Below are positions 1,008 to 57,080 of a stretch of DNA of 64,000 nt, piece after piece. Both the position numbers and the translations under genes were made by a program. Positions within the stretch are counted from its first letter, which is position 1. Every line of letters starts with the position of its first letter. Source of the DNA: a virus; the IMG/VR virus record IMGVR_UViG_3300017605_000635, positions 1-64,000 of that record; one strand, written 5' to 3'. The notes beneath the pieces are model-generated. The model was not told the DNA's origin, searched no databases, and saw only the letters and a program-made list of their open reading frames with translations.

Positions 1008-1226
1008 GTGCCGATTCCTGATGGGTCGTTCTATTCCTGGGTCCTCGCCCAACGCTCGCAACCCGGTCTCCTCGGAGACACCGCCCGAGACCTCCTCACC
1101 AGCCATCCGGACCTTCCGAGGTCGGCACGGCGGCTGACGGTCTTCCTCCGCTCCTGCAACGGTGATACGGTCCTCCGAGACCGGGTCAAGGTTCTGCACG
1201 CTGCATGGCGGAGGACCGTGCGATGA
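1008..1226 (+). CDS. YozE-like (SAM-like fold) small protein
   Basis: The frame encodes SFYSWVLAQR, GLLGDTARDLL and a terminal AAWRRTVR, matching the pattern of the YozE_SAM_like family (sFY.WL..qr, vGDLA.D, ..AW..Y), a short helical domain found in Bacillus and phage proteins, possibly in nucleic-acid or protein binding. The start is taken as GTG 1008 with TAGGG upstream; an earlier GTG at 927 is open but has no ribosome site. The TGA stop overlaps the primase ATG (ATGA), which indicates translational coupling. Family call is by motif only. Confidence 0.6.
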   Translation: MPIPDGSFYSWVLAQRSQPGLLGDTARDLLTSHPDLPRSARRLTVFLRSCNGDTVLRDRVKVLHAAWRRTVR

Positions 1227-3226
1227 CCACTCGGTTGAAAGCTCCTCGAACGGTCCAGGAGTGGGCCGCTGACTACCTGCGTCGAGGGTTCGAAGTTCTC
1301 CCGCTGATCCCAGGCACGAAGAAGTCTGACAACGAGAAGTGGATGTCCATGACGTTCGCTCCCGAGGACTTCAAGGAGGGCGACAACCTCGGCATCCGTT
1401 CGGTCAAAGGCCTGACGATCATCGACGAAGACTGCCCCGAAGCGGTGGCGTGCGCGGAGACGTTCCTCCCGCCGACTGGCGCGGTCTTCGGTCGAGCCTC
1501 GAAGCCTCGCAGCAAACGCCTCTATCGGTCCTCCTTCGATAAGATCATCGCCTTCAAAGACACCGAGTCAAAGCAGACGTTGATCGAGATACGCGTCAAT
1601 CATCAGGATATGGCGCCGCCATCGGTGCATCCAGACGGAGAACCATTGGAGTGGGACGGCGGATTTGGCGAACCGTCGACGGTCGATGGGCCTGTGTTGT
1701 TACGAGCCGTGCGCTTGGTCGCTACGACCTCGTTGATCTCCCGCTACTACAACCCTCCGGGTGCGCGCCATGATTGGACCCTCGCGTTGTCGGGGTTCCT
1801 GCGGAACCTCGGGTTGACCTTCGAGGAGTGCCTCAAGGTGCTCCAAGCGTCAGCCGCGTGGGCCCGGGACTCGAAGGTCAACGACCGAGAGATTGAAGTC
1901 CGGTCGACGTATAACCGGCCGGATGATGATCCGCTGAAAGGTGCCAAAGAACTCCGCGAGACAATGGAGACAGGCAAGACGTTCCTGTCCTCGCTGAATA
2001 AGATTTGGGGCTCCTCGTCCTCTGCGTTCCTCTACGATGCGAAGGGTGAGAAGATTCTCGCCAACTCCCAAGAGAATATCCGGCGTGCGTTGGTGCGACT
2101 CGACGTGGATGCGAGCTTCGATGCGTTCGCGCAACAGCCGCTCGTCAAGTACAACGGGTATCAAGGACCGTTGAACGACCGGATGGCGACGCATATCTGG
2201 TTGCAGATTGACGAGCGATATCACTTCCGGCCCACGAAGGAGTTTTACCTCGATGTTTTCGTGGACCACTCCGGGAAGCACGAGATTCACCCGGTGCGGA
2301 GTTATCTTGAGAAGCTTGAATGGGATAAGACGCCTCGCATCGATGAGTGGCTCATCCGCTCCGCCAAGGCGGCCAATGCGCCGTTTACACGAGCGGTCTC
2401 GGCGCTGTTCTTCCTTGCCGCCGTTCGACGCGTCATGAAGCCTGGCTGTAAGTTCGATGAAATCCTCGTCCTCGAATCCGGGCAACAAGGGCTCCAGAAG
2501 TCGACGGCATTGAGACTGCTCTGCCCCGATGAGCGCTGGTTCTCGGATGATCTCCCGCTGAACGTCGATACCCAGGAGGTCATCGAGCGGACCTTGGGCA
2601 AGTGGATCATCGAGGCGTCCGACCTCTCGGGGATGTCGCCTGCGAAAATCGAACACCTCAAGGCGATGCTCTCTCGCCAGGTGGATGGTCCAGTGCGGAT
2701 GGCCTACGGTCGAATCGCAACGGAACAGAAGCGCCAATTTGTAATTGTTGGCACCACGAACTCCTACAATTACCTCTCCGACATTACGGGCAACCGTCGA
2801 TTCTTCCCGGTGCGCGTCGAGCAGTTCGACCTCGGGTACATTCGAGAGAACCGCGATCAGTTGTGGGCGGAAGCGGTGGTAAGAGAGAAGGCGGGAGAGT
2901 CTATCCGTCTCGACCCGAATCTGTACGGGTTCGCCGCCATGCAACAGGAGCGGCGCAGAACGGTCGACCCTTGGGAGTCGGTGCTGGAGAGCGCATTCCC
3001 CGAGGAGTATCACCGGCTGGCGCCCAAAGACATCTGGGGAGCCCTCGGGCTCAGCGTGAAGGACCAGACGCCTGGCGCCTCGAAACGGGTGGCCGCGATT
3101 ATGCAGCTGCATGGGTTCCGTTCGATGACGGTCATGGACGACAAAATGAAACGCGTGCGTGGGTGGGGTCGAGGCTCGAAGCTCCTCGAATCGTTTACGG
3201 ACAATGATGAAGGAAAGGACGTGTAG
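1223..3226 (+). CDS. Bifunctional primase-polymerase (PriPol) fused to VirE/D5-type helicase
   Basis: 667 aa replication protein. The N-terminal half resembles the PriPol archaeo-eukaryotic primase domain: acidic DED at residues about 68-70 (after GLTII) and PPSVHPDG at about 132-139. The C-terminal half is VirE-like: P-loop region SGQQGLQKST near residue 420, then EASDLSGM, KIEHLKAMLSR and TGNRRFFPVRV near 522-532. It probably synthesises primers and unwinds DNA at the phage origin. Start chosen at ATG 1223 because GGAGG lies 8 nt upstream and it overlaps the previous stop; ATG 1205 has no ribosome site. The second P-loop glycine is replaced by Gln, which is unusual. Confidence 0.88.
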   Translation: MTTRLKAPRTVQEWAADYLRRGFEVLPLIPGTKKSDNEKWMSMTFAPEDFKEGDNLGIRSVKGLTIIDEDCPEAVACAETFLPPTGAVFGRASKPRSKRLYRSSFDKIIAFKDTESKQTLIEIRVNHQDMAPPSVHPDGEPLEWDGGFGEPSTVDGPVLLRAVRLVATTSLISRYYNPPGARHDWTLALSGFLRNLGLTFEECLKVLQASAAWARDSKVNDREIEVRSTYNRPDDDPLKGAKELRETMETGKTFLSSLNKIWGSSSSAFLYDAKGEKILANSQENIRRALVRLDVDASFDAFAQQPLVKYNGYQGPLNDRMATHIWLQIDERYHFRPTKEFYLDVFVDHSGKHEIHPVRSYLEKLEWDKTPRIDEWLIRSAKAANAPFTRAVSALFFLAAVRRVMKPGCKFDEILVLESGQQGLQKSTALRLLCPDERWFSDDLPLNVDTQEVIERTLGKWIIEASDLSGMSPAKIEHLKAMLSRQVDGPVRMAYGRIATEQKRQFVIVGTTNSYNYLSDITGNRRFFPVRVEQFDLGYIRENRDQLWAEAVVREKAGESIRLDPNLYGFAAMQQERRRTVDPWESVLESAFPEEYHRLAPKDIWGALGLSVKDQTPGASKRVAAIMQLHGFRSMTVMDDKMKRVRGWGRGSKLLESFTDNDEGKDV

Positions 3227-3227
3227 A

Positions 3228-3407
3228 ATGAGAGGCCACATCGCGGGGTTGCTCCCGCCTCGTAGACGCAGCCGCAAGATTCCCCTGTACAAGGGTCGAG
3301 GACCGAGGTGTATGGTGACCGATAAGGGGCACGGAGACCCCTGTAATACTCCGGTCTTCGAGAAGGGCCAGATCAAGTGCTGGATTCATCGCGGAGGTGA
3401 CAAGTGA
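3228..3407 (+). CDS. Small zinc-finger-like protein with CWIHRGG motif (59 aa)
   Basis: Begins at ATG 3228, one base after the primase stop. The 59-residue product is basic at the N-terminus and carries RCMVT, then DPCNTP, then CWIHRGG. This C...C...C-x2-H pattern ending in HxGG resembles the HGG zinc motif in some phage terminase small subunits, including the one at 5362-5943. Its GTGA stop overlaps the next gene. A nucleic-acid-binding role is likely but unproven. Confidence 0.6.
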   Translation: MRGHIAGLLPPRRRSRKIPLYKGRGPRCMVTDKGHGDPCNTPVFEKGQIKCWIHRGGDK

Positions 3408-3637
3408 TCATGGCGTTTCCTTGGACCCCCGAAATCGGCAAGCGTTACGAGGGAGAACTCAGTATCGGCAAAGCCGGTGAGGAACGACTTGTCACGGTTC
3501 CATATGTCGTCCTCCGAGAAGCCACGGCGGAAGAATGGGCGGAGGAACATCGAGACCTCGGAGAGTCCGAGGAGTTCATTCAAGAGAACATCGCCTATCT
3601 CCGGCAATATCCGTTGTATGATGTAGGAGTCGACTGA
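3404..3637 (+). CDS. Hypothetical protein (77 aa)
   Basis: GTG 3404 is chosen over ATG 3410 because it overlaps the previous stop (GTGA) and has GGAGG six bases upstream. The product is acidic with a beta-like first half (RYEGELSIGKAG) and a helical second half. No motif recognised. It ends in TGATG with the next gene, part of the early rightward operon. Confidence 0.65.
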   Translation: MIMAFPWTPEIGKRYEGELSIGKAGEERLVTVPYVVLREATAEEWAEEHRDLGESEEFIQENIAYLRQYPLYDVGVD

Positions 3638-3978: not shown

Positions 3979-4259
3979 AGAAGACGAAGGACCGAGGCGT
4001 GTTCATGAAGGTGCCGGAACTGGAACGACCGTTGACGAAGAAGCAACTAACCGAGATGGACGACATCGATAACTACGTGAAGGGTGTGCTCAAACCGTTG
4101 ATCCCGGTTCAGTTCACGTTCCCGTCTCCGAAGATGAAGAAGGGCGCACGGATAAAAGCGCTGGAAACGAGGGTGGAACGTCTGCAAACACAGGTCTCGA
4201 CCCTTTCACGTGTTGTCAGGGAGATGATTGAGCGGGAGGAACGGAAGAAGAGACGTTGA
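3975..4259 (+). CDS. Hypothetical coiled-coil protein (94 aa)
   Basis: ATG 3975 overlaps the previous stop (ATGA) and has GGAGAGG upstream. The product is very basic and ends in a heptad-rich coiled coil (IKALETRVERLQTQVSTLSR). No enzymatic motif. Probably a small nucleic-acid- or protein-binding accessory factor. Confidence 0.6.
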   Translation: MKKTKDRGVFMKVPELERPLTKKQLTEMDDIDNYVKGVLKPLIPVQFTFPSPKMKKGARIKALETRVERLQTQVSTLSRVVREMIEREERKKRR

Positions 4260-4318
4260 CGTTGATCCTCTCGGACGTATGGACGATTGCCAGGCAGCAG
4301 AATGAGCGAGGAACGGCT

Positions 4319-4516
4319 ATGGATGAACGAGCGATTGATGACGCACGAACGGACGTGGCGGTGGCGCGGAACAACTTGGCGCGGAAGCTTGCCGACCTCG
4401 AACGGATTTGGAAGGCAAAGGGTGGCGAGGCGGGAGCCTCGCTGTATACGAGGGAGCCGAATGGGCCGATGGACCCGGAGGGCTGCTGCGCGTGCCGTGG
4501 GACTGGGAGGAAGTGA
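4319..4516 (+). CDS. Small helical protein with CxxCxGxG zinc motif (65 aa)
   Basis: Start at ATG 4319, preceded by GAGG seven bases upstream; a TTG at 4256 is open but less convincing. The N-terminal 40 residues are helical and charged; the end carries CCACRGTGRK, a half DnaJ-type CxxCxGxG knuckle. Several short phage proteins in this window share such a motif (for example 45704-45892). Ends TGATG with the next gene. Confidence 0.6.
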   Translation: MDERAIDDARTDVAVARNNLARKLADLERIWKAKGGEAGASLYTREPNGPMDPEGCCACRGTGRK

Positions 4517-4815
4517 TGGCGACGGTCACGCAGAAGCGGCTGACGTTCGAATTCAAGAAGGCGGTGAGGACCGCGCACTATCACGGACCTCGATTGAGCT
4601 ATGCGGAGATGGCGTCTCGTTCGGGGTTCCCGGATGAGAAGTGTTTGACCCAAGCGTTGAACGCTCCTCGTGTGTCCTACTCGGCGCGAACGATTTATCG
4701 ATTCGATGCCTTGGCACGGCTGATTGGGCATCCGACTGAGGACATTTGGATGCCAGTTAACCACCATAAACCCAGGTATAAATCGTGGTTGTATCGGGGG
4801 GAGTCGGGGGAGTAA
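4516..4815 (+). CDS. Putative HTH DNA-binding protein (99 aa)
   Basis: ATG 4516 overlaps the previous stop and follows GGGAGG. Residues about 20-75 fit a helix-turn-helix arrangement (LSYAEMASRSGF, then CLTQALN, then YRFDALARLIGH), like a Cro/C1-type fold in which the SYAEMASRSG helix pair would contact DNA. It is the last gene before the GTAAC repeat region at 4975-5208, so it is a reasonable candidate for the protein binding there. That link is inference. Confidence 0.5.
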   Translation: MATVTQKRLTFEFKKAVRTAHYHGPRLSYAEMASRSGFPDEKCLTQALNAPRVSYSARTIYRFDALARLIGHPTEDIWMPVNHHKPRYKSWLYRGESGE

Positions 4816-4974
4816 GCTCCTCGACGTGTCACGCCGCTTAGCTCTCCCGTCGTCGACCGGTCGAGGGAATCCTGTCCGGTCGACCTTGGGACTCGGGCCT
4901 GACAAAAGGCCATTCGTTCTCCGTCCTTCCTCCGTTTTCCCCACCTCCTCGGTCGAAACGCTCGAAAGCTCATA

Positions 4975-5208
4975 GTAACTTTTGGTAACGTTGAGTAACG
5001 TGTGGCGTAACTTCGTTACGAGTGGCGGAGCCATGGCGTAACGCAGTAACGGAGTAAAACATGGTTCCTAGAGTACTTTTTGGAGCCCTGTGTCCGTTTT
5101 TTCCCTCTAGAGGCTGAGTTACTCCGTTACTGCGTTACTCCGAGGGAATCTCAAGAATTACTAGTTACGTAAAAGTTACTGTTAGGAAAGTCCTGGGAAA
5201 GTGGTAAC
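4975..5208. repeat. Iteron-like cluster: 13 GTAAC/GTTAC copies with a perfect 20-bp inverted repeat
   Basis: In this noncoding stretch GTAAC occurs at 4975, 4985, 4995, 5007, 5038, 5046 and 5204 and its complement GTTAC at 5015, 5118, 5126, 5134, 5164 and 5175. The first three are exactly 10 bp apart and others 8 bp apart. Positions 5038-5057 are the perfect reverse complement of 5119-5138, with a 61-bp loop that contains the palindrome CCTCTAGAGG (5104-5113). The design looks like a multi-site protein-binding region: origin, terminase recognition site or operator. The full gap 4816-5361 contains no convincing gene. Confidence 0.75.
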
Positions 5209-5286
5209 GGACCCAGTTTTTGACCCCATTTCTTCCCCTCGGCTATCGGAAGGAGCGGTGGTCCCGGAGCCCGGTCACGATTTTCC

Positions 5287-5315
5287 TTGACTCAACGGTA
5301 GCCTCCTCGTTTACC
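5287..5315 (+). promoter_or_regulatory. Weak candidate promoter before the late operon
   Basis: TTGACT at 5287-5292, 17-bp spacer, then TTTACC at 5310-5315. The -35 is good and the -10 poor. It is the best-placed candidate to start the structural block because it lies just upstream of the terminase genes, but a phage-encoded activator or another promoter is equally possible. Confidence 0.25.
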
Positions 5316-5361
5316 CTTGAGCCCAGCGGGAGGGCTCCGGCTCTCTCGCTCTGTTCCTACC

Positions 5362-5943
5362 ATGCCAGAAGTTCGCATCAAGGCGACGTGCGCCTCAATA
5401 AACTCCCACGGTGACCATTGTCAACGAGAGGTCGCCAAGTGGGGAGACCTTTGTGGGTCACATAGAACCGATAGACGACGTTGTACCCATGTGTACGCCG
5501 ATGGTCGCCAATGTGACTCCTTACCTATACATGGTGGTGATGTTTGTATCAACCATGGCGGGAGGGCTCCTTCCACTCGCAAAGCCGCCAACATGCGGCT
5601 CCTCGCCATGGTGGAACCCGCGCTCAATTGCCTCGAACGAGCGATGGAGTGCGCTGATTGGCCGGTGGCGACACGAGCGGCCATTGCCATCATGGACCGT
5701 GCAGGGTTCGGACCCTCGATGCGCGTGACCGTGGACGGCTCCTCGACCTCCGAGTATAAAGAGTTGTCTGACGCCGAGTTGGAACAGCGTGCGCTCCAAG
5801 TCCTCGAACGTGTTCGCCAACGTCAGTTGGCGCTCGCAACAAAGCAGTTAGCCGCTGCGCAAGACCAGAATGAACGAACGGATGAGAATGCTTCTCCAGA
5901 TACCCTGGAGGAGGGTTCCTCGACTCCGTATCGTGAACATTGA
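5362..5943 (+). CDS. terS: Putative terminase small subunit (zinc-motif type)
   Basis: 193 aa. The N-terminus has two Cys/His clusters (ATCASINSHGDHC and CDSLPIHGGDVCINHGG), the HGG motif frequent in phage small terminases or their accessory proteins. The middle (LNCLERAMECADWPVATRAAIAIMDRAGFG in shorthand) matches the helical oligomerisation region of such proteins, and the C-terminus is a charged helix. It would recognise the packaging site and direct the large subunit. It lies immediately before the large terminase, overlapping it by about 70 nt. The start is uncertain: ATG 5362 has no clear ribosome site. Confidence 0.6.
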   Translation: MPEVRIKATCASINSHGDHCQREVAKWGDLCGSHRTDRRRCTHVYADGRQCDSLPIHGGDVCINHGGRAPSTRKAANMRLLAMVEPALNCLERAMECADWPVATRAAIAIMDRAGFGPSMRVTVDGSSTSEYKELSDAELEQRALQVLERVRQRQLALATKQLAAAQDQNERTDENASPDTLEEGSSTPYREH

Positions 5944-7438
5944 TCAAATAGCCGACGCTGAAGAAGCGTTTGACTTTGCTTCGGACCTCGAAGAACTCGA
6001 ACATATCGAGGCGGAGCTTGCGCGCCGCAATCTTTTCCTGTTCATCCAAAAGACCTGGCACGTTGTCGAGCCCAAGAAGGAGTTCATCTCCAATTGGCAC
6101 ATCGAGGAGATGTGTCACCAGTTGGAACGTGTAACCAAGGGAGAGACCTCCCGGCTCATCGTCAATGTTCCTCCAGGCACGATGAAGACGTTGTTGATCC
6201 TCGTCTTCTGGCCGGCATGGGAATGGGCGTCTGATCCTTCCCTCCGTTACCTCACCGCGTCATATGCCGCCTCTCGAACGATAGACGCCAACCAGAAGGT
6301 TCGCGACATCGTCAACTCTCCTTGGTATCAGAAGCATTACCCGGAGGTCAAGTTCACTTCCGACCAGAATGCTAAGGAGTTGTTCAAGACCGATCAGAAG
6401 GGGGAACGGCGTGCGACCTCGGTCGGGGGAGAAGGAACGGGTATCCATCCAGACCGGATCATCATCGACGACCCGATCACCGCTGACGATGCGCGGTCTG
6501 ACGAAGTCCGGAAGGGCGTCAACGATTGGTTCGATCAAACGCTCTCGATTCGTGGGGCGATCAGGAAGACCAAGATCATCCTTGTCATGCAGCGGCTGCA
6601 CAAGGAAGACCTTACTGGCCATATCCTAAGCAAGCACTGGAACACCCCAGGGCTCTGGCTACACGTCCGATGGCCGATGCGTTACGTGCCAAGCCGACCA
6701 CCCAGCGAACAGGAGCCTGAGGGGTTCGTCGCTGACCCTCTCGACCCTCGGACGGAGCCCGGACAACTCCTGTGGCCGGAGGCGTTCACCGAGGAGATGG
6801 TGCGCAACCTGGAGTTGACCCTCGGTCCTTACGGAACGGCCGGACAGCTGCAGCAGCAACCCTCGCCTGAGGGAGGCGGTCTCTTCAAGCGTGCGTGGTT
6901 CGGTATCGTGGATATGGTCCCCAAGGGGAAGGTTGTACGACGGTGCAGAGGGTGGGATACAGCGGCCACCGAAGGCTCCGGCGACTGGACCTGTGGTGTC
7001 CTCCTCGCGGAGGTCGACGGGGTTGTGTACGTCGAGGATGTCGTGTATGACCAGTTGGGCCCGGCAGGTGTCGACGAACTGTTCAGGAACACAGCCAAAG
7101 CGGACGGGCGGATGACGATGCAGCGGGAGGAGAAGGAGCCGGCAGCGTCTGGAGTTGCGGTCATCCATGCGCGTGCTCGGCTCCTTCGAGGTTATGACTA
7201 CGCGGGGGTGACGGTCTCCAAGGACAAGGTCACCCGGGCTCGACCCTTCCGGGCGCAGGCCGAAGCACGCAACGTCTTCCTCAAACGGGCTCCGTGGAAC
7301 AACATGTACCTCTCTGCCCTCGTGGACTTCCCAACTGGGACGATGAATCATCCGGTCGACGGTTCCTCCTGTGCGTATAACGCGATTGTTGAGGAGCCAA
7401 TGCCCGTTTCCGCCACGTGGGGTAAGAAGTCCGCATGA
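5870..7438 (+). CDS. terL: Terminase large subunit (packaging ATPase/nuclease)
   Basis: 522 aa motor that translocates DNA into proheads and cuts concatemers. ATPase motifs: Walker A VNVPPGTMKT at about 98-107, an adenine/coupling segment YLTASYAAS, and Walker B RIIIDDP at about 196-202. The RNase H-like nuclease begins RGWDTAATEGSGDWT at about 361. Start uncertain: ATG 5870, 5879 or 5888 all lack a strong ribosome site and overlap terS. The stop overlaps the portal start (ATGA), as usual for terminase-portal pairs. Confidence 0.93.
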   Translation: MNERMRMLLQIPWRRVPRLRIVNIDQIADAEEAFDFASDLEELEHIEAELARRNLFLFIQKTWHVVEPKKEFISNWHIEEMCHQLERVTKGETSRLIVNVPPGTMKTLLILVFWPAWEWASDPSLRYLTASYAASRTIDANQKVRDIVNSPWYQKHYPEVKFTSDQNAKELFKTDQKGERRATSVGGEGTGIHPDRIIIDDPITADDARSDEVRKGVNDWFDQTLSIRGAIRKTKIILVMQRLHKEDLTGHILSKHWNTPGLWLHVRWPMRYVPSRPPSEQEPEGFVADPLDPRTEPGQLLWPEAFTEEMVRNLELTLGPYGTAGQLQQQPSPEGGGLFKRAWFGIVDMVPKGKVVRRCRGWDTAATEGSGDWTCGVLLAEVDGVVYVEDVVYDQLGPAGVDELFRNTAKADGRMTMQREEKEPAASGVAVIHARARLLRGYDYAGVTVSKDKVTRARPFRAQAEARNVFLKRAPWNNMYLSALVDFPTGTMNHPVDGSSCAYNAIVEEPMPVSATWGKKSA

Positions 7439-51664: not shown

Positions 51665-53293
51665 CTACTCCTCCTGCAACGCTCGAATCCACGCCGATGA
51701 CGTCAGGTCTGCGAGGTTCCGCTTTCCTTGGCGCGCCTTGAAGACGACGTGGTCAATCGTCTTCTGGCCCTTTGGCCCGGTCGCAAGCAGATGGTAGTAC
51801 GACACCGCCTCGACCTGCCCAGGCCGATGCACGCGGTCTTGCGACTGCAGATCATCCTTCAAGTTGTAGTCCTCGGAGAGGTTGAAGACCGTATGCGCGG
51901 CCGTGAGGTTGAGCCCCATGGAGCCGGTCTTCTTGATCCCCACGACCACTGCCGGTCGATCACGTGGAGCCGTCCTCGGGTCGAGGAGCCGTAGCGTGCG
52001 ATCACGCTCCGCCTTTTTCTGCCCTCCTCGAAGCTCCGCCACTTCCATCCCCGCGTATCGCTCCCGCAGCGCCGCAACCGTTCGCTCGACCTCCGGAACG
52101 AACCGAGACCAGACGAGGAGCTTGAGTGTCGGGTCTTTATAGAGGGTCAGGTCCATCCACTGGAGGAAGAAATCGAGCTTTTCACGGCTGATCTCCTGAA
52201 CCGGAGCCGTTGCACTCCGCGCCACGGTGCTCAACGTGGGCGTGGGGTCTTCGTCCTCGATGTCAAAGATCATCCAATCGGGAATCGTCTCTGCCTTGAT
52301 GTTCGAGAGGTCTTGCTGCATCTCGATGCCCGGAGCTTCGAGCCCTCCGAGGAACCCGGAGGTGATCTGCGCGAGGCGCATGACCTTCGTGATTGCTTGT
52401 TGCGCAACCGAGATGGTCGACTCTGAGAGCCACGCCACGAGTTCGTCTCGCATCTCTCGATACAGCTTCCACGTCGAGGCATCCATCGGAACGGTAAAGA
52501 TGACGGGCGGAAGCTTCTCCGGGAGGTCGAGACATTCGGCCTTGAGTCGACGAATGACGTAGGGTGCGAGCCGTTGTTGAAGGTCGTCGAGGTTGACCCA
52601 ACCGACGATTTGCCGATTCTCGAAGCCTCCGAGAATCGCGTATTTGGATTTGAACTGTGTGTACGTCGGGAGCCCGATGATCCGAGGGTCGAGGAGGAGC
52701 CCTTGGGCAAAGAGGTCTCCGGGGTTGTTCGGCACCGGCGTGCCGTTCAGGAGCCACGACCAACCGCATCGCTTCCGGAGTTCTCGGCACGCTCTAAACT
52801 GCTGGCTCTGCGAGTTCTTGACGAGGCTCGACTCATCGAGGATGATGACCGTTTTTGGGCCGCAGAAGTTGAACAGCTGCTTGTAGACGGTTCTGTCTCG
52901 GATGTATTCGTAGTTCGTAATGACCCACTTGAGCGATTGCTTTGTCTTCCCCTCGAAGAACCACTGGTTAGGTCTCGACCGGAACTCCGTGATCACTGAT
53001 CCAAAGCCATCCCACAAGTGCTTTCGAAGTTCTCCAAGCTCCGACTCGAACCAGACTGGGCGCACTCCATTCGGGCAGACGACCAATGCTCGATCAACCA
53101 TCCCCTCGTAGGCGAGGACTTGCGCCGCATCGATCACCTGTTTCGTCTTCGCCACGCCCATCTCATCGAAGAGACCGAAGCACCGAGGGAAGATACGCCC
53201 TCGGGCGGGGTCAATCTCCTTGATCAACTCCTCGACGCCAACCACTTGGTGGGCGTAGGGCGGGAGCCGAGTGTATTGGCGGAAGTCGATCAT
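51665..53293 (-). CDS. SNF2/DEAD-like superfamily 2 helicase
   Basis: 542 aa. Motif I is LFDEMGVAKTKQ (43-52), with Ala where most SNF2 proteins have Gly (GLGKT). Motif II VIILDESS (149-156) uses DESS instead of DEAH; motif III WLLNGTPVPN; motif V/VI GSMGLNLTAAHTVF and QSQDRVHRPGQ (ending about 493). It would remodel or unwind DNA during phage replication. ATG 53293 overlaps the exonuclease stop (ATGA). Confidence 0.88.
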   Translation of the reverse strand: MIDFRQYTRLPPYAHQVVGVEELIKEIDPARGRIFPRCFGLFDEMGVAKTKQVIDAAQVLAYEGMVDRALVVCPNGVRPVWFESELGELRKHLWDGFGSVITEFRSRPNQWFFEGKTKQSLKWVITNYEYIRDRTVYKQLFNFCGPKTVIILDESSLVKNSQSQQFRACRELRKRCGWSWLLNGTPVPNNPGDLFAQGLLLDPRIIGLPTYTQFKSKYAILGGFENRQIVGWVNLDDLQQRLAPYVIRRLKAECLDLPEKLPPVIFTVPMDASTWKLYREMRDELVAWLSESTISVAQQAITKVMRLAQITSGFLGGLEAPGIEMQQDLSNIKAETIPDWMIFDIEDEDPTPTLSTVARSATAPVQEISREKLDFFLQWMDLTLYKDPTLKLLVWSRFVPEVERTVAALRERYAGMEVAELRGGQKKAERDRTLRLLDPRTAPRDRPAVVVGIKKTGSMGLNLTAAHTVFNLSEDYNLKDDLQSQDRVHRPGQVEAVSYYHLLATGPKGQKTIDHVVFKARQGKRNLADLTSSAWIRALQEE

Positions 53294-54081
53294 CGGGTGG
53301 GATACTTTCCCTTGAGCGCATTCGCACAGATGACCTTTACGTCATCGGCAAAATCGTTCTTGATTATCCATTCGAGATACCCTGTCTCAACCATCCGGAG
53401 CGGTTTCCCTCGGTGTTTCCCTCCAAAGTTGACGACCACTTCTCCGTTGGCCCAGATGAACTTCCCGCCCTTGTCGACGGCTCCGGCCGGAGTGGGGAAG
53501 CAGAACGCGGCAAGCTCCGGGATGGTCCGAGGAACGTGGTCCCAGCCCTCGACCTGGGCGGCCAGAACCTTCTCCGTAGCGGCCACGTCTGCCCCCGCGT
53601 CATGGGCGTCCTCGAAGCCTCCCGGGTCGACGAACTCTTTGTATGCAGCTTGCAGGTTCCGAGGGAAGAGAATCTGAAAGAGGCGAAGCGCATCGACCAC
53701 GTGGCTTTCGTTCTTCTCCCAGTCCCATTCGACGTGCGCTCGACGCATCTCCGCCCGGAGCACCTTGAGGTCGTAGGTGACGTTGAACCCAGCCCAATCG
53801 ACCTTCACGAGGGTCTTCACGAGGACGGGCGCCATCTCATTGAACTTGTGCGGCTTTTCGAGGCCAATCCGTTCGTTAACGGCGGCATGGTCCTTCGTCG
53901 CCTCGGCGGGAACCTCGATGGTCGGGTCCACGAGCGAGACCCATCTGACCGGGTCTTTGTCGGGATAGTGCTTAGTGATTGCTATCTGCCAGATGCGGGC
54001 TGTCGCTGGGTCGAGACCGGTGGTTTCAAGATCAAGCACCGCCAACGGCCGTTCCAGCTTCAACACGCGGGCAAGATTCAC
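53290..54081 (-). CDS. DnaQ-like DEDDh 3'-5' exonuclease
   Basis: 263 aa from GTG 54081. Exo I VLDLETTGLDP (Asp17, Glu19), Exo II FNVTYDLKVL (Asp104), Exo III AHDAGADVAAT (His160, Asp165): complete acidic set. A proofreading or nucleic-acid-trimming enzyme. The C-terminal 70 residues carry extra beta structure that may add specificity. Coupled to the SF2 helicase and the cold-shock gene. Confidence 0.88.
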   Translation of the reverse strand: MNLARVLKLERPLAVLDLETTGLDPATARIWQIAITKHYPDKDPVRWVSLVDPTIEVPAEATKDHAAVNERIGLEKPHKFNEMAPVLVKTLVKVDWAGFNVTYDLKVLRAEMRRAHVEWDWEKNESHVVDALRLFQILFPRNLQAAYKEFVDPGGFEDAHDAGADVAATEKVLAAQVEGWDHVPRTIPELAAFCFPTPAGAVDKGGKFIWANGEVVVNFGGKHRGKPLRMVETGYLEWIIKNDFADDVKVICANALKGKYPTR

Positions 54082-54293
54082 TTCCTCACCCTCAACACTT
54101 CGACCTCGGAGGCACGGAGCCCGTTCTCATGGATGATCGGCGTGAACTGGACGGGCTCTCCCTCCTGGAGTTGCTCGAACAAGGTCTGGTCTCCGAGGAA
54201 CCCGGAGATGTGGAAGAATCGGGAGTGCCCGTCTTCATCGAGGATGAACCCAAACCCTTTTGTAGCATGGACGCGGATGATCGAGCCTTTCAT
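54078..54293 (-). CDS. Cold-shock-domain protein
   Basis: 71 aa from ATG 54293 (GAGGG upstream). MKGSIIRVHATKGFGFILDEDG has the RNP1-like KGFGFI and RFFHIS the RNP2-like motif: an OB-fold RNA/ssDNA-binding chaperone. GTGA overlap to the exonuclease. Presumably modulates RNA structure or antitermination. Confidence 0.85.
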   Translation of the reverse strand: MKGSIIRVHATKGFGFILDEDGHSRFFHISGFLGDQTLFEQLQEGEPVQFTPIIHENGLRASEVEVLRVRK

Positions 54294-54799
54294 GATTGCC
54301 CTCGGGAGTCGATTTCGGATTGGAGATACCACAACGCTTTCCGGAGGTCTTCGAGGCTATCGGCTCCCGGCTTTCGGCCGGCACGACAGATGTACTTCGT
54401 GGCGTTGCCGAGGCGGTAATTGAGCTTCCACGCGTCGACCACCTTGATGTGTTCGTAGAGGTCAGCGGCTCCGCCGTAGTGGGCTGGGTGGTTGACGCGT
54501 TCCTCCTCGACCGGAGAGAGGTCTTGGATTTGGTCCTCGGGAATCTGAGTCACCGGAGTTCGATGGAGGAGCCCGACTCCATCCTGGTAGCCCATCCGCC
54601 CTTCACCGTGTATCGGGCAATCCGTCGAGGGAGATTTGCCCGCCAGGCAAATACAGTTGGGGTGACGCTTCTTCGGTCGAGGCACGCCGTGGATGGGGCA
54701 CTGCGGGTCGACCTCCAAGCTATCCTCAATCGCTCCGGGCGGACAGATACACTTGGGCCCCATCTTCTCCTCAGGCACGTAATGATTCTCCTCGCTCAT
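54290..54799 (-). CDS. DUF3310 protein with N-terminal Cys repeats (169 aa)
   Basis: ATG 54799 with GGAGG upstream. The C-terminal 75 residues match DUF3310 (VNHPAHYGG, WKLNYRLGNATKYICRAG, EDLRKALWYLQSEI), a phage family of uncertain nucleotide or DNA-linked function. The N-terminal 80 residues contain repeated CICPPG/CPIHG units, a likely metal-binding extension. ATGA-coupled to both neighbours, including the thymidylate synthase homologue. Confidence 0.75.
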   Translation of the reverse strand: MSEENHYVPEEKMGPKCICPPGAIEDSLEVDPQCPIHGVPRPKKRHPNCICLAGKSPSTDCPIHGEGRMGYQDGVGLLHRTPVTQIPEDQIQDLSPVEEERVNHPAHYGGAADLYEHIKVVDAWKLNYRLGNATKYICRAGRKPGADSLEDLRKALWYLQSEIDSRGQS

Positions 54800-55848
54800 G
54801 ATTTCGCCTCCCACGCAGTCTTCCGTCGTTCTATCCATTCGATGCCGGCACAACACCAATCGACGTGACAGAACGGTTTAAGAACGTCGATTGCTCGATT
54901 GAACCGCTCCGGAGCCGGAGTGCCCTTGTAGACACAGTGAGCAAAGAGCATCGACCAAACGATATGCCCCCAGACTTCGTTCCAGTCCTCCTTGTTTGGG
55001 ATTTGGAGGACGAGGAGTTGAAAATCCGTGTCGGCGTCTTCGAGGATGCTCTGAATGATTTTGTCGTTCCCCTCGTGCGTATTCAATTGCATTGAGTGTG
55101 TGTAGATGGTTCCGTCTTCGTAGGGGTTGGGAATCGGCTCCGGCGTCGCATACAACGGCTCTCGAAGGAGCGGCAGCGTCCGCTCGAACACCTCGACATA
55201 CGCGTGGTAGTTGACGGAGACCTGCCGATAGACGCCCATCGGGACGCCTATCCAGTTGGCCATGTATTCAAGGAGGAACGAGAAGTGGACGGCGTTGGCG
55301 CCGTAAGCTCCCCAGATGATATCGTTCGACCGGTTAAAGACGGTCAACTCCAGCTTACCCTCGGTGTTGATCTGGAAGGTGGCTTCGAGGTTGCAAGGGA
55401 GGTCTTTGCCCTGGCGCCCGAGATCAGCCTCCACATCCCACATCTGGAGAACCTGACGACGGTCCTCGGGATTTCGCTTGAGTGCTTCGGCAATGAGCTC
55501 AAGTTGGTCGATGTCGAAATGTCTCCGCCATCGGAACCCGTAGGCTCCCCAGAGCAGACTTCCGTCGTCGGAGTAGGCCGCCATCTGCTTCGCATAGCGG
55601 AGCAACGGCACCACATCATTCCTCCCGGCCAACATCCACAACGACTCGTACAGATGGAAGAACGGGTTGGCATCTCGCTCCGGCCAGAACAGGACTCGTT
55701 CCCACGGTCGTTCGTAGACAGTACACACAGGCCACGGTGCCTGGAGGACTGGACCGTTACGGCTCTCTCGACGGATGCCGTGCTCCTTGAGGAGCCGGAG
55801 CCCGAGGGGAAGTGCCTCGTGAACATTGCGTGCCTCGATGACTTTCAT
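54796..55848 (-). CDS. Thymidylate synthase-family protein, candidate dUMP hydroxymethylase
   Basis: 350 aa from ATG 55848 (GAGGGG upstream). Catalytic Cys152 in DLPCNLEATF, RSND at 173-176, GAYGANAVHFSFL and HAYVEV: the folate-dependent pyrimidine C5 transferase fold. Normal TS has PCH; PCN and the GAYGAN variant are found in the phage branch that includes hydroxymethylases. Next to kinase and transferase genes it most likely makes 5-hydroxymethyl-dUMP for DNA hypermodification. True methyl versus hydroxymethyl transfer cannot be seen from sequence. Confidence 0.8.
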   Translation of the reverse strand: MKVIEARNVHEALPLGLRLLKEHGIRRESRNGPVLQAPWPVCTVYERPWERVLFWPERDANPFFHLYESLWMLAGRNDVVPLLRYAKQMAAYSDDGSLLWGAYGFRWRRHFDIDQLELIAEALKRNPEDRRQVLQMWDVEADLGRQGKDLPCNLEATFQINTEGKLELTVFNRSNDIIWGAYGANAVHFSFLLEYMANWIGVPMGVYRQVSVNYHAYVEVFERTLPLLREPLYATPEPIPNPYEDGTIYTHSMQLNTHEGNDKIIQSILEDADTDFQLLVLQIPNKEDWNEVWGHIVWSMLFAHCVYKGTPAPERFNRAIDVLKPFCHVDWCCAGIEWIERRKTAWEAKS

Positions 55849-55976
55849 CTTCCCCTCGCTAAGGTTTCGAGAGCCGTAGCAATCCGGAGGAGACTTGTGT
55901 TCATGACGAGGAGACCTCCGAGGAGTGCTCCTGCAATGAGTGAAAGGGATACGTTGATGAGAAAGTTTTCCTTCAT
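55845..55976 (-). CDS. Small membrane protein (43 aa) ahead of the TS-like gene
   Basis: ATG 55976 with AAAGG upstream; TGA overlaps the TS start (ATGA). MKENFLINVSLSLIAGALLGGLLVM is one hydrophobic helix with a short charged tail. Translational coupling to the TS-like enzyme suggests co-function or membrane association. Too short for recognised families. Confidence 0.55.
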   Translation of the reverse strand: MKENFLINVSLSLIAGALLGGLLVMNTSLLRIATALETLARGR

Positions 55977-55997
55977 CCTTTAATCCTTTCGTCGAAC

Positions 55998-56027
55998 CCC
56001 GAGGGAACCCCCACGTGCCCCCTCGGG
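55998..56027 (-). terminator. Hairpin after the secreted-protein gene
   Basis: CCCGAGGG (55998-56005) and 56020-56027 pair around 14 nt, 16 nt past the stop at 56043. It likely separates the secreted-protein unit from the TS operon. No T run. Confidence 0.45.
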
Positions 56028-56042
56028 TATCCGTGTTAGAGG

Positions 56043-57080
56043 TTACTGAACTGACGAGAGAAATACGTCGTACACCCGACGTTCCCGCGTGCGGTCGGCA
56101 TCGAGTCCGTTTTTGCCGGGAGCCGTTCGTGTAAGCAAAGTTCCTTGGAACCGATACCGATTGCCGTTCCCGTCTCGACGATAGCTCTCCACCCACGAGG
56201 TCAAGAGCCCGGCATAGTTCGTGAGGAACGGAGACCGCTCCGACGACTCTGCGACGCCATTGTGGTTACGGTCGTGCCACCATTCGAGCTTCGCTCCGAG
56301 TGGTTGTGTCGAGTCAATGACGGCGACAGCCACCCCGCCATTCAGAGACATATTGATCTTCTGAGCAGCATCGAATCCGTTCACGGCTCCGGCAATAGTC
56401 CAGTTCCCAAGTAGATTTCTGCCGCAGACTTGTCCCGAGGTCGGGAGGTCGTAGGTTAAGAAGGCGACATCACTGTTCACCTCCGTCCACGAGGTCATCT
56501 TCTTCGTGCCGTCACAGTTGAAGTCGAACATGACTCCGTCCTCTGGGCGCGTGAACTTCACGTTCTGGCTCCCTCCGGTATTCGCAACGATGGGACTCTG
56601 ACACTGCCAGTTGCTTGCGTAGTAATTCCATTCGTATTCGCAGTAGTTGTCGGGTGGCGGAGGGGGGCAATTTGCCTGCACGTTGATGAACGATGGACCG
56701 GGCTCAACCCAAATACCAGGATGGAACGGATCAGGCATGTATGACCCTCTTGCCCCAGCCGCAACCGCCGCTCCACAAGCCCACCATTCCGCCTGGGCCA
56801 CCGAATCTTCAAGAGTGTATTCATCGTGGTCCGTGCAGTGACTGGTTTCGCTGTCCCAGTAACTCCCGCCTGTGCACATTGCCATAGCTCCCGGGAACCA
56901 GACTTCGATTTGGGTGCCGGCACAGTCGCCCGGGCGTTGCATCGCAAATGCCCGTATGATATTTGTACTGCTTGCGTCGGCTAGTACAAACGCTCCCGGA
57001 GTACAGTTCTGCGCTTGCGCCTCTCTCGACAAACCCAACACCCCGAGGGACATGAGCATCACGATTCCTACGCTTCTCAT
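56043..57080 (-). CDS. Secreted Cys-rich protein with calcium-binding-like domain (345 aa)
   Basis: ATG 57080 with AAAGGAGGG upstream, a strong site. Signal peptide MRSVGIVMLMSLGVLGLSREAQA. Cys-rich first half (TDHDEYTLEDS, CPPPPPDNYCEYEW). The second half contains FDFNCDGTKKMTSW, VAFLTYDLPTSGQVCGRNLLGNW, WWHDRNHNGVAESSERSPFL and YRRDGNGNRYRFQG, resembling D-x-D/N-x-D-G calcium-binding modules of secreted RTX-type and related proteins. A secreted protein within a DNA-modification operon is unexpected. Could be a moron gene. Confidence 0.7.
   Translation of the reverse strand: MRSVGIVMLMSLGVLGLSREAQAQNCTPGAFVLADASSTNIIRAFAMQRPGDCAGTQIEVWFPGAMAMCTGGSYWDSETSHCTDHDEYTLEDSVAQAEWWACGAAVAAGARGSYMPDPFHPGIWVEPGPSFINVQANCPPPPPDNYCEYEWNYYASNWQCQSPIVANTGGSQNVKFTRPEDGVMFDFNCDGTKKMTSWTEVNSDVAFLTYDLPTSGQVCGRNLLGNWTIAGAVNGFDAAQKINMSLNGGVAVAVIDSTQPLGAKLEWWHDRNHNGVAESSERSPFLTNYAGLLTSWVESYRRDGNGNRYRFQGTLLTRTAPGKNGLDADRTRERRVYDVFLSSVQ

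Follow-up and report, generated by a model that had tools for sequence, protein, structure and literature searches.

The GTAAC repeat array at positions 4975-5208 is very probably an iteron-type replication origin for the phage's own initiator, a Prim-Pol/VapE-type protein encoded at 1205-3226. The window analysed here covers bases 1-64,000 of an IMG/VR virus record with a total length of 69,749 bases. Its features around the array are:

1205-3226, plus strand: initiator with Prim-Pol, VapE-like SF3/AAA+ helicase and C-terminal winged helix (predicted), 673 aa
3227-4815, plus strand: small ORFs separating the array from the initiator gene, without clear family
4975-5050, plus orientation: left iteron set, six GTAAC (+) at 4975, 4985, 4995, 5007, 5038 and 5046, one (-) at 5015
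5035-5057: left arm of the inverted repeat, exact part 5038-5057, iterons at 8-bp spacing
5051-5117, 67 bp: spacer between the sets and candidate melting site, with T-runs and CCTAGAG/CTCTAGAGG
5118-5208, minus orientation: right iteron set, five GTTAC at 5118, 5126, 5134, 5164 and 5175, one GTAAC (+) at 5204
5119-5141: right arm of the inverted repeat, exact part 5119-5138
5317-5943, plus strand: protein in the usual small-terminase position, weak match to a PHROG of unknown function only
5870-7438, plus strand: terminase large subunit (TerL), phrog_38, 4.5e-79

Exact counting found 13 copies of GTAAC/GTTAC within the 234 bp, as a preliminary description of this DNA had stated, with start-to-start distances of 10, 10, 12, 8, 23, 8, 72, 8, 8, 30, 11 and 29 bp, many of them 8-12 bp. 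Its assertion that such a cluster cannot be due to chance holds as well: 60 first-order Markov shuffles of the whole window gave top counts of 6-8 for any 5-mer per 234 bp, and GTAAC did not exceed five copies in any of 20,000 shuffles of the array. Across the window GTAAC/GTTAC is about twofold over-represented (95 versus 53 expected), and no second cluster of it was found elsewhere in the 64 kb. The copies form two sets of opposite orientation (left ++++-++, right -----+) around a spacer with a mild AT bias (0.54 versus 0.41 in the surrounding 14 kb). This corresponds to the layout of PICI origins, where an AT-rich region invariably lies between two sets of iterons (PMC6092414). No mismatch occurs in the 20-bp inverted repeat reported earlier (5038-5057/5119-5138), and with one mismatch (96%) the arms can be lengthened to 23 nt (5035-5057/5119-5141), enclosing a 61-nt loop. 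Each arm reads GTAAC-N3-GTAAC-N3-GTAA, with 3-nt spacers that match between the arms. The inverted repeat is not independent of the GTAAC repeats, since it is made of repeat units 8 bp apart. DNA similarity of the region 4000-6400 to known phages was not detected. The GC-skew shift proposed as a check did not mark a sharp origin; the cumulative minimum lies at 1564 and is confounded by gene direction.

The protein encoded at 1205-3226 matches the VapE-like helicase family PF05272 (4.3e-63) and, in its N-terminal part, the Prim-Pol family PF09250 (1.4e-5). In a sequence comparison with the PDB it matched 7pds best (E 1.9e-33), an entry entitled 'The structure of PriRep1 with dsDNA'; we take this PriRep1 to be the SaPI1 protein. 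An AlphaFold2 model built from 48 sequences reached a mean pLDDT of 91, and in it residues 589-656 (about) show the helix-helix-helix and two-stranded wing order of a winged helix. In fold comparison 7pds was again top, with Z 32.5 over 383 residues (271-662) including the C-terminal domain, followed by NrS-1 with Z 14.4, while the N-terminal part matched the pRN1 Prim-Pol (Z 12.2). Judged by sequence and predicted fold, the protein is a homologue of SaPI PriRep1 that resembles it in structure, so that a VapE/Rep-type self-loading helicase is encoded on the same element as the array. The preliminary description had drawn no link between the array and this gene 1.75 kb upstream.

The element itself is not built like a PICI, which lacks capsid and tail genes of its own: besides TerL, it encodes a portal protein downstream of the array and a tail tape-measure homologue. 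These structural genes identify it as a tailed phage and not a satellite. It also encodes a family-A DNA polymerase with exonuclease, a thymidylate synthase and an SNF2-type helicase. The SNF2-type helicase, thymidylate synthase and polymerase (3'-5' exonuclease) genes lie on the minus strand, at 51665-56196 and within the final 6 kb of the record (L004:1239-3233). Next to the array, the gene at 5317-5943 does lie where the preliminary description placed a small terminase, a name assigned by position only. Both this gene and that of TerL are neighbours of the array; TerL is not part of the origin, and the protein in the small-terminase position is not assigned to it. On the other side, the product of 4516-4815, described earlier as an HTH protein, has no family match and yielded an unusable lone structure prediction (pLDDT 43). 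Exact-peptide scans of IMG/VR returned no relatives of either the 5317-5943 or the 4516-4815 protein.

VapE relatives were gathered from viral contigs and bacterial genomes, near-duplicates were removed, and each locus was searched blind for two-orientation clusters of any 5-8-mer, a cluster being strict when stronger than every Markov null; a fragment of an APSE phage (L342) was left out and served as VapE context only. Strict clusters occurred at 96 of 190 VapE loci versus 4 of 55 loci of TerL relatives without VapE, array counts near the threshold being approximate because the repeat finder relies on Markov-null calibration and a rough score. Most clusters at VapE loci begin no more than about 100 bp after the VapE stop codon. 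In a separate comparison with the remaining 450-bp segments of each locus, the one at the VapE 3' end was the most repeat-rich in 109 of 180 non-redundant loci (7.6 expected); 99 of these 180 segments scored above the 99th percentile of the control segments, compared with 2 of 166 segments immediately preceding the gene. A TerL homologue was present in the examined flank of only 5 of the 119 array-bearing VapE loci. As the arrays sit at the VapE 3' end and TerL is rarely near, they belong to the initiator, and the terminase neighbourhood in the window is incidental. Of the functions originally offered for the region, this comparative evidence favours the replication origin, tying arrays of this architecture to the VapE-type initiator gene; it speaks against a switch for late transcription.

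The rarity of TerL also bears on the proposal that the array is a packaging site (pac/cos), where the small terminase would bind the repeats and the terminase complex would cut to start packaging. The array is indeed located directly upstream of the gene in the small-terminase position and terL, and arrays near TerL were found in L007 (648 bp) and L012 (874 bp); however, both of these loci also encode an initiator helicase upstream. Three further TerL relatives carry inverted iteron arrays upstream of TerL with no VapE domain found, namely L015:4582-4700 (TAGTCAC), L020:3438-3729 (TACTAGGA) and L063:237-391 (GTTAAGTA). These contigs may be fragments, and the initiator may lie outside them or be another one. 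Conversely, 51 of the 55 TerL relatives without VapE have no array above the strict threshold, nor does L017, which encodes a homologue of the protein in the small-terminase position. We consider a packaging site very unlikely, and the two candidates for binding that the preliminary description had named, the 4516-4815 product and the small terminase, are probably not the binding proteins.

The repeat word itself recurs among the nearest relatives of the initiator, where a search for the motif had been suggested. At least seven GTAAC/GTAAT per 300 bp were present in 8 of the 16 nearest VapE relatives, whereas the remaining loci reached this density in 16 of 173 cases (Fisher p = 1.4e-4). A terminase does not usually lie close to the arrays of these relatives. 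The same core appears in close relatives as TGTAAC (L182, L198), GGTAAC (L183, L187, L188), a TGTAAT/GTAAC mix (L189) and TGTAAT (L178), and a different word, GGTACTCA, in the close relative L086. Over the 119 arrays, word similarity climbs with the similarity of the C-terminal domains, the mean cosine being 0.05 for the less similar half of the pairs and 0.33 for the top 3%. With helicase-domain similarity taken into account, the partial rank correlation was 0.10 (0 of 500 permutations), which is positive but weak. Repeat words differ between loci: those clustered after VapE or between VapE and the terminase genes include, besides that of L086, TAGTTGC (L088), TGAACA (L090), GTTAA (L007) and ATCTGGTC (L012).

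With regard to position, the array of the window is separated from the upstream initiator gene by 1752 bp containing small ORFs, whereas the arrays of most relatives lie within about 100 bp. As it is not immediately 3' of the initiator gene, we claim its membership in the SaPI/PICI type as a displaced form, and this displaced position is the window's own peculiarity. In near relatives the distance between the VapE gene and an array downstream of it varies from about 10 bp to 2.5 kb, the arrays of L180, L187, L189 and L198 being likewise displaced by 0.5-2.5 kb. In L178, whose VapE gene shares 51% identity with that of the window, a TGTAAT array (1326-1542) precedes this gene by 4.4 kb; here the array moved and the word stayed similar.

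The spacers of the surveyed arrays were more AT-rich than their locus in 95 of 119 cases, and the arms had opposite majority orientation in 87 of 119. A search for a conserved second element in the spacers brought out AT-rich words only, such as TATAAAAA and TCTATA; the latter was enriched in the arrays of relatives (28 versus 5 controls), and the CTAGAG motif of the window was not (9 versus 7).

Known systems provide the framework for this reading. The Rep protein of SaPIs recognises, through its C-terminal domain, iterons directly downstream of its own gene (PMC7581432), and the iteron sequence of SaPIs and PICIs is element-specific (PMC6092414, PMC7581432). The window shares with them the homologous VapE-type initiator and a candidate origin downstream of its gene. 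It differs in that the array resides in a 69.7-kb tailed-phage record with genes for terminase, portal and tail and a DNA polymerase of its own, is separated from the gene by 1.75 kb with small ORFs, has a spacer of mild AT bias and belongs to an initiator whose Prim-Pol is fused to the helicase. In satellite phage P4, the alpha protein is a primase-helicase whose C-terminal winged helix binds the origin repeats and which unwinds and primes (PMC4234260). The initiator of the window is likewise a primase-helicase with a predicted C-terminal winged helix; however, the P4 alpha primase is of the bacterial Toprim type, whereas the N-terminal domain here is an AEP-type Prim-Pol (PF09250, with the pRN1 primase fold). 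In SCCmec, the C-terminal domain of the initiator helicase Cch2 also binds short repeats 3' of its gene, and its helicase activity requires the iteron (PMC7581432). That system differs in having three AAGTG iterons only, a helicase of the Primase_Cterm/D5_N family and a separate A-family primase-polymerase.

By analogy with the SaPI, SCC and P4 work, the initiator would bind the GTAAC repeats through its C-terminal winged helix, with one hexamer assembling per mirror-image repeat set. The two hexamers would melt the relatively AT-rich spacer and then unwind outwards, the Prim-Pol domain would lay primers, and the family-A DNA polymerase of the phage, or that of the host, would extend them. Both initiator binding and origin activity at 4975-5208 are thus proposed from sequence and from these precedents. 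Weighing against an origin are the distance of 1752 bp, the mild AT bias of the spacer, the weak covariation of word and C-terminal domain, the deviating word of L086, the arrays of L015, L020 and L063 with no VapE found, the lack of a sharp GC-skew signal and the about 40-50% of VapE loci in which the repeat finder detected no clear array, for example those of phages Haddon, BT12 and BV283P2.

A further possibility is that the long hairpin (23-bp stem, 61-nt loop) and not the individual repeats is functional, as in the stem-loop origins of pRN1 and BIP-1. The replicons of pRN1 (ORF904) and Bordetella phage BIP-1 share with the window the combination of AEP Prim-Pol, SF3 helicase and winged helix and an origin downstream of the gene, and the pRN1 origin, 3' of the related Prim-Pol/SF3/winged-helix gene, has stem and loop lengths (21 nt and 58 nt; PMC4234260) close to those found here. 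Moreover, the array folds far better as a single strand than its shuffles (z -5.2), the 3-nt spacers of both arms mirror each other, and the arms of the window are among the five longest in the 119 arrays. pRN1 and BIP-1 have been described as having a stem-loop without an iteron origin, whereas the long stem-loop downstream of the replication gene in the window is built of iterons and located 1.75 kb away. However, the repeats outside the hairpin would be left unexplained, and inverted arms of at least 16 nt occur in only 44 of the 119 arrays, many of which consist of scattered repeats without a long hairpin. This implies that the iterons are the common denominator, and we regard a purely stem-loop origin as highly improbable, although within an iteron origin the inverted repeat could additionally function as a hairpin, in analogy to what has been proposed for pRN1 and BIP-1.

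A role of the array as an operator, or as a switch for late transcription, to which the small 4516-4815 protein would bind is scarcely credible: the gene adjoins the array and the predicted helix order of its product is loosely HTH-like (in a model of very low confidence), but no relative of this protein was found in the array-bearing loci checked or in the viral-contig scan, arrays occur without it, a simple operator would be unusual in having 13 sites arranged as mirror-image sets with a spacer between them, and about half of the tested loci show the same architecture after VapE.

The origin type as such is already known from SaPIs and PICIs and resembles that of P4, and a 2018 paper called it exclusive to phage satellites. 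The survey extends it to phages and prophages, named sequenced ones included. A gap of about 280 bp directly after the VapE gene contains seven copies of GGGTGACC in Marinobacter phage PS3 (L337), six copies of AAGGGACG in Staphylococcus phage 2638A (L339) and ten copies of GTCAAC in Paenibacillus phage Pd_22F. No report of arrays after VapE in phages was found in the literature searched, which covered a minority of subscription journals. On balance, we favour the view that the PICI/SaPI-type origin is no satellite speciality and is standard for a large class of tailed phages and prophages with VapE-type initiators, and that iteron words diversify with the winged helix of the initiator, so defining many mutually blind replication-specificity groups among phages and satellites.

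For a phage known from metagenomes only, the analysis provides a testable candidate origin and initiator, and a simple rule, inspection of the DNA immediately behind the VapE gene, is sufficient to find a candidate origin in about half of the tested VapE loci. We further argue that phage 'virulence-associated protein E' genes are replication initiators rather than genes for virulence or auxiliary functions, the labels that some annotations give them. In the published annotation of phage PS3 the PF05272 domain was treated as an auxiliary/virulence feature (PMC8424206); the GGGTGACC iteron array that directly follows this gene points to a replication initiator.

Some loci showed additional features. 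L012 carries, at 3177-3450, a two-orientation array of ten ATCTGGTC copies. It is flanked by a Prim-Pol/DUF5906 helicase gene on one side and, on the other, by the gene for a homologue of the protein that occupies the small-terminase position in the window. The helicase matches PF19263 (1.8e-21), with a VapE match just below the cut-off, and the arrangement suggests that origins of this type also exist in a further SF3 helicase family; a search for relatives of this DUF5906-type initiator returned L012 alone. In phage 2638A, another 350-bp stretch of the examined locus has an even higher score for word repetition (19.3) than the AAGGGACG/AAGGCACG array that follows the VapE gene. L015 contains about seven tandem CAACCGTA repeats in an inter-ORF gap at 1505-1660, apart from its TAGTCAC array.
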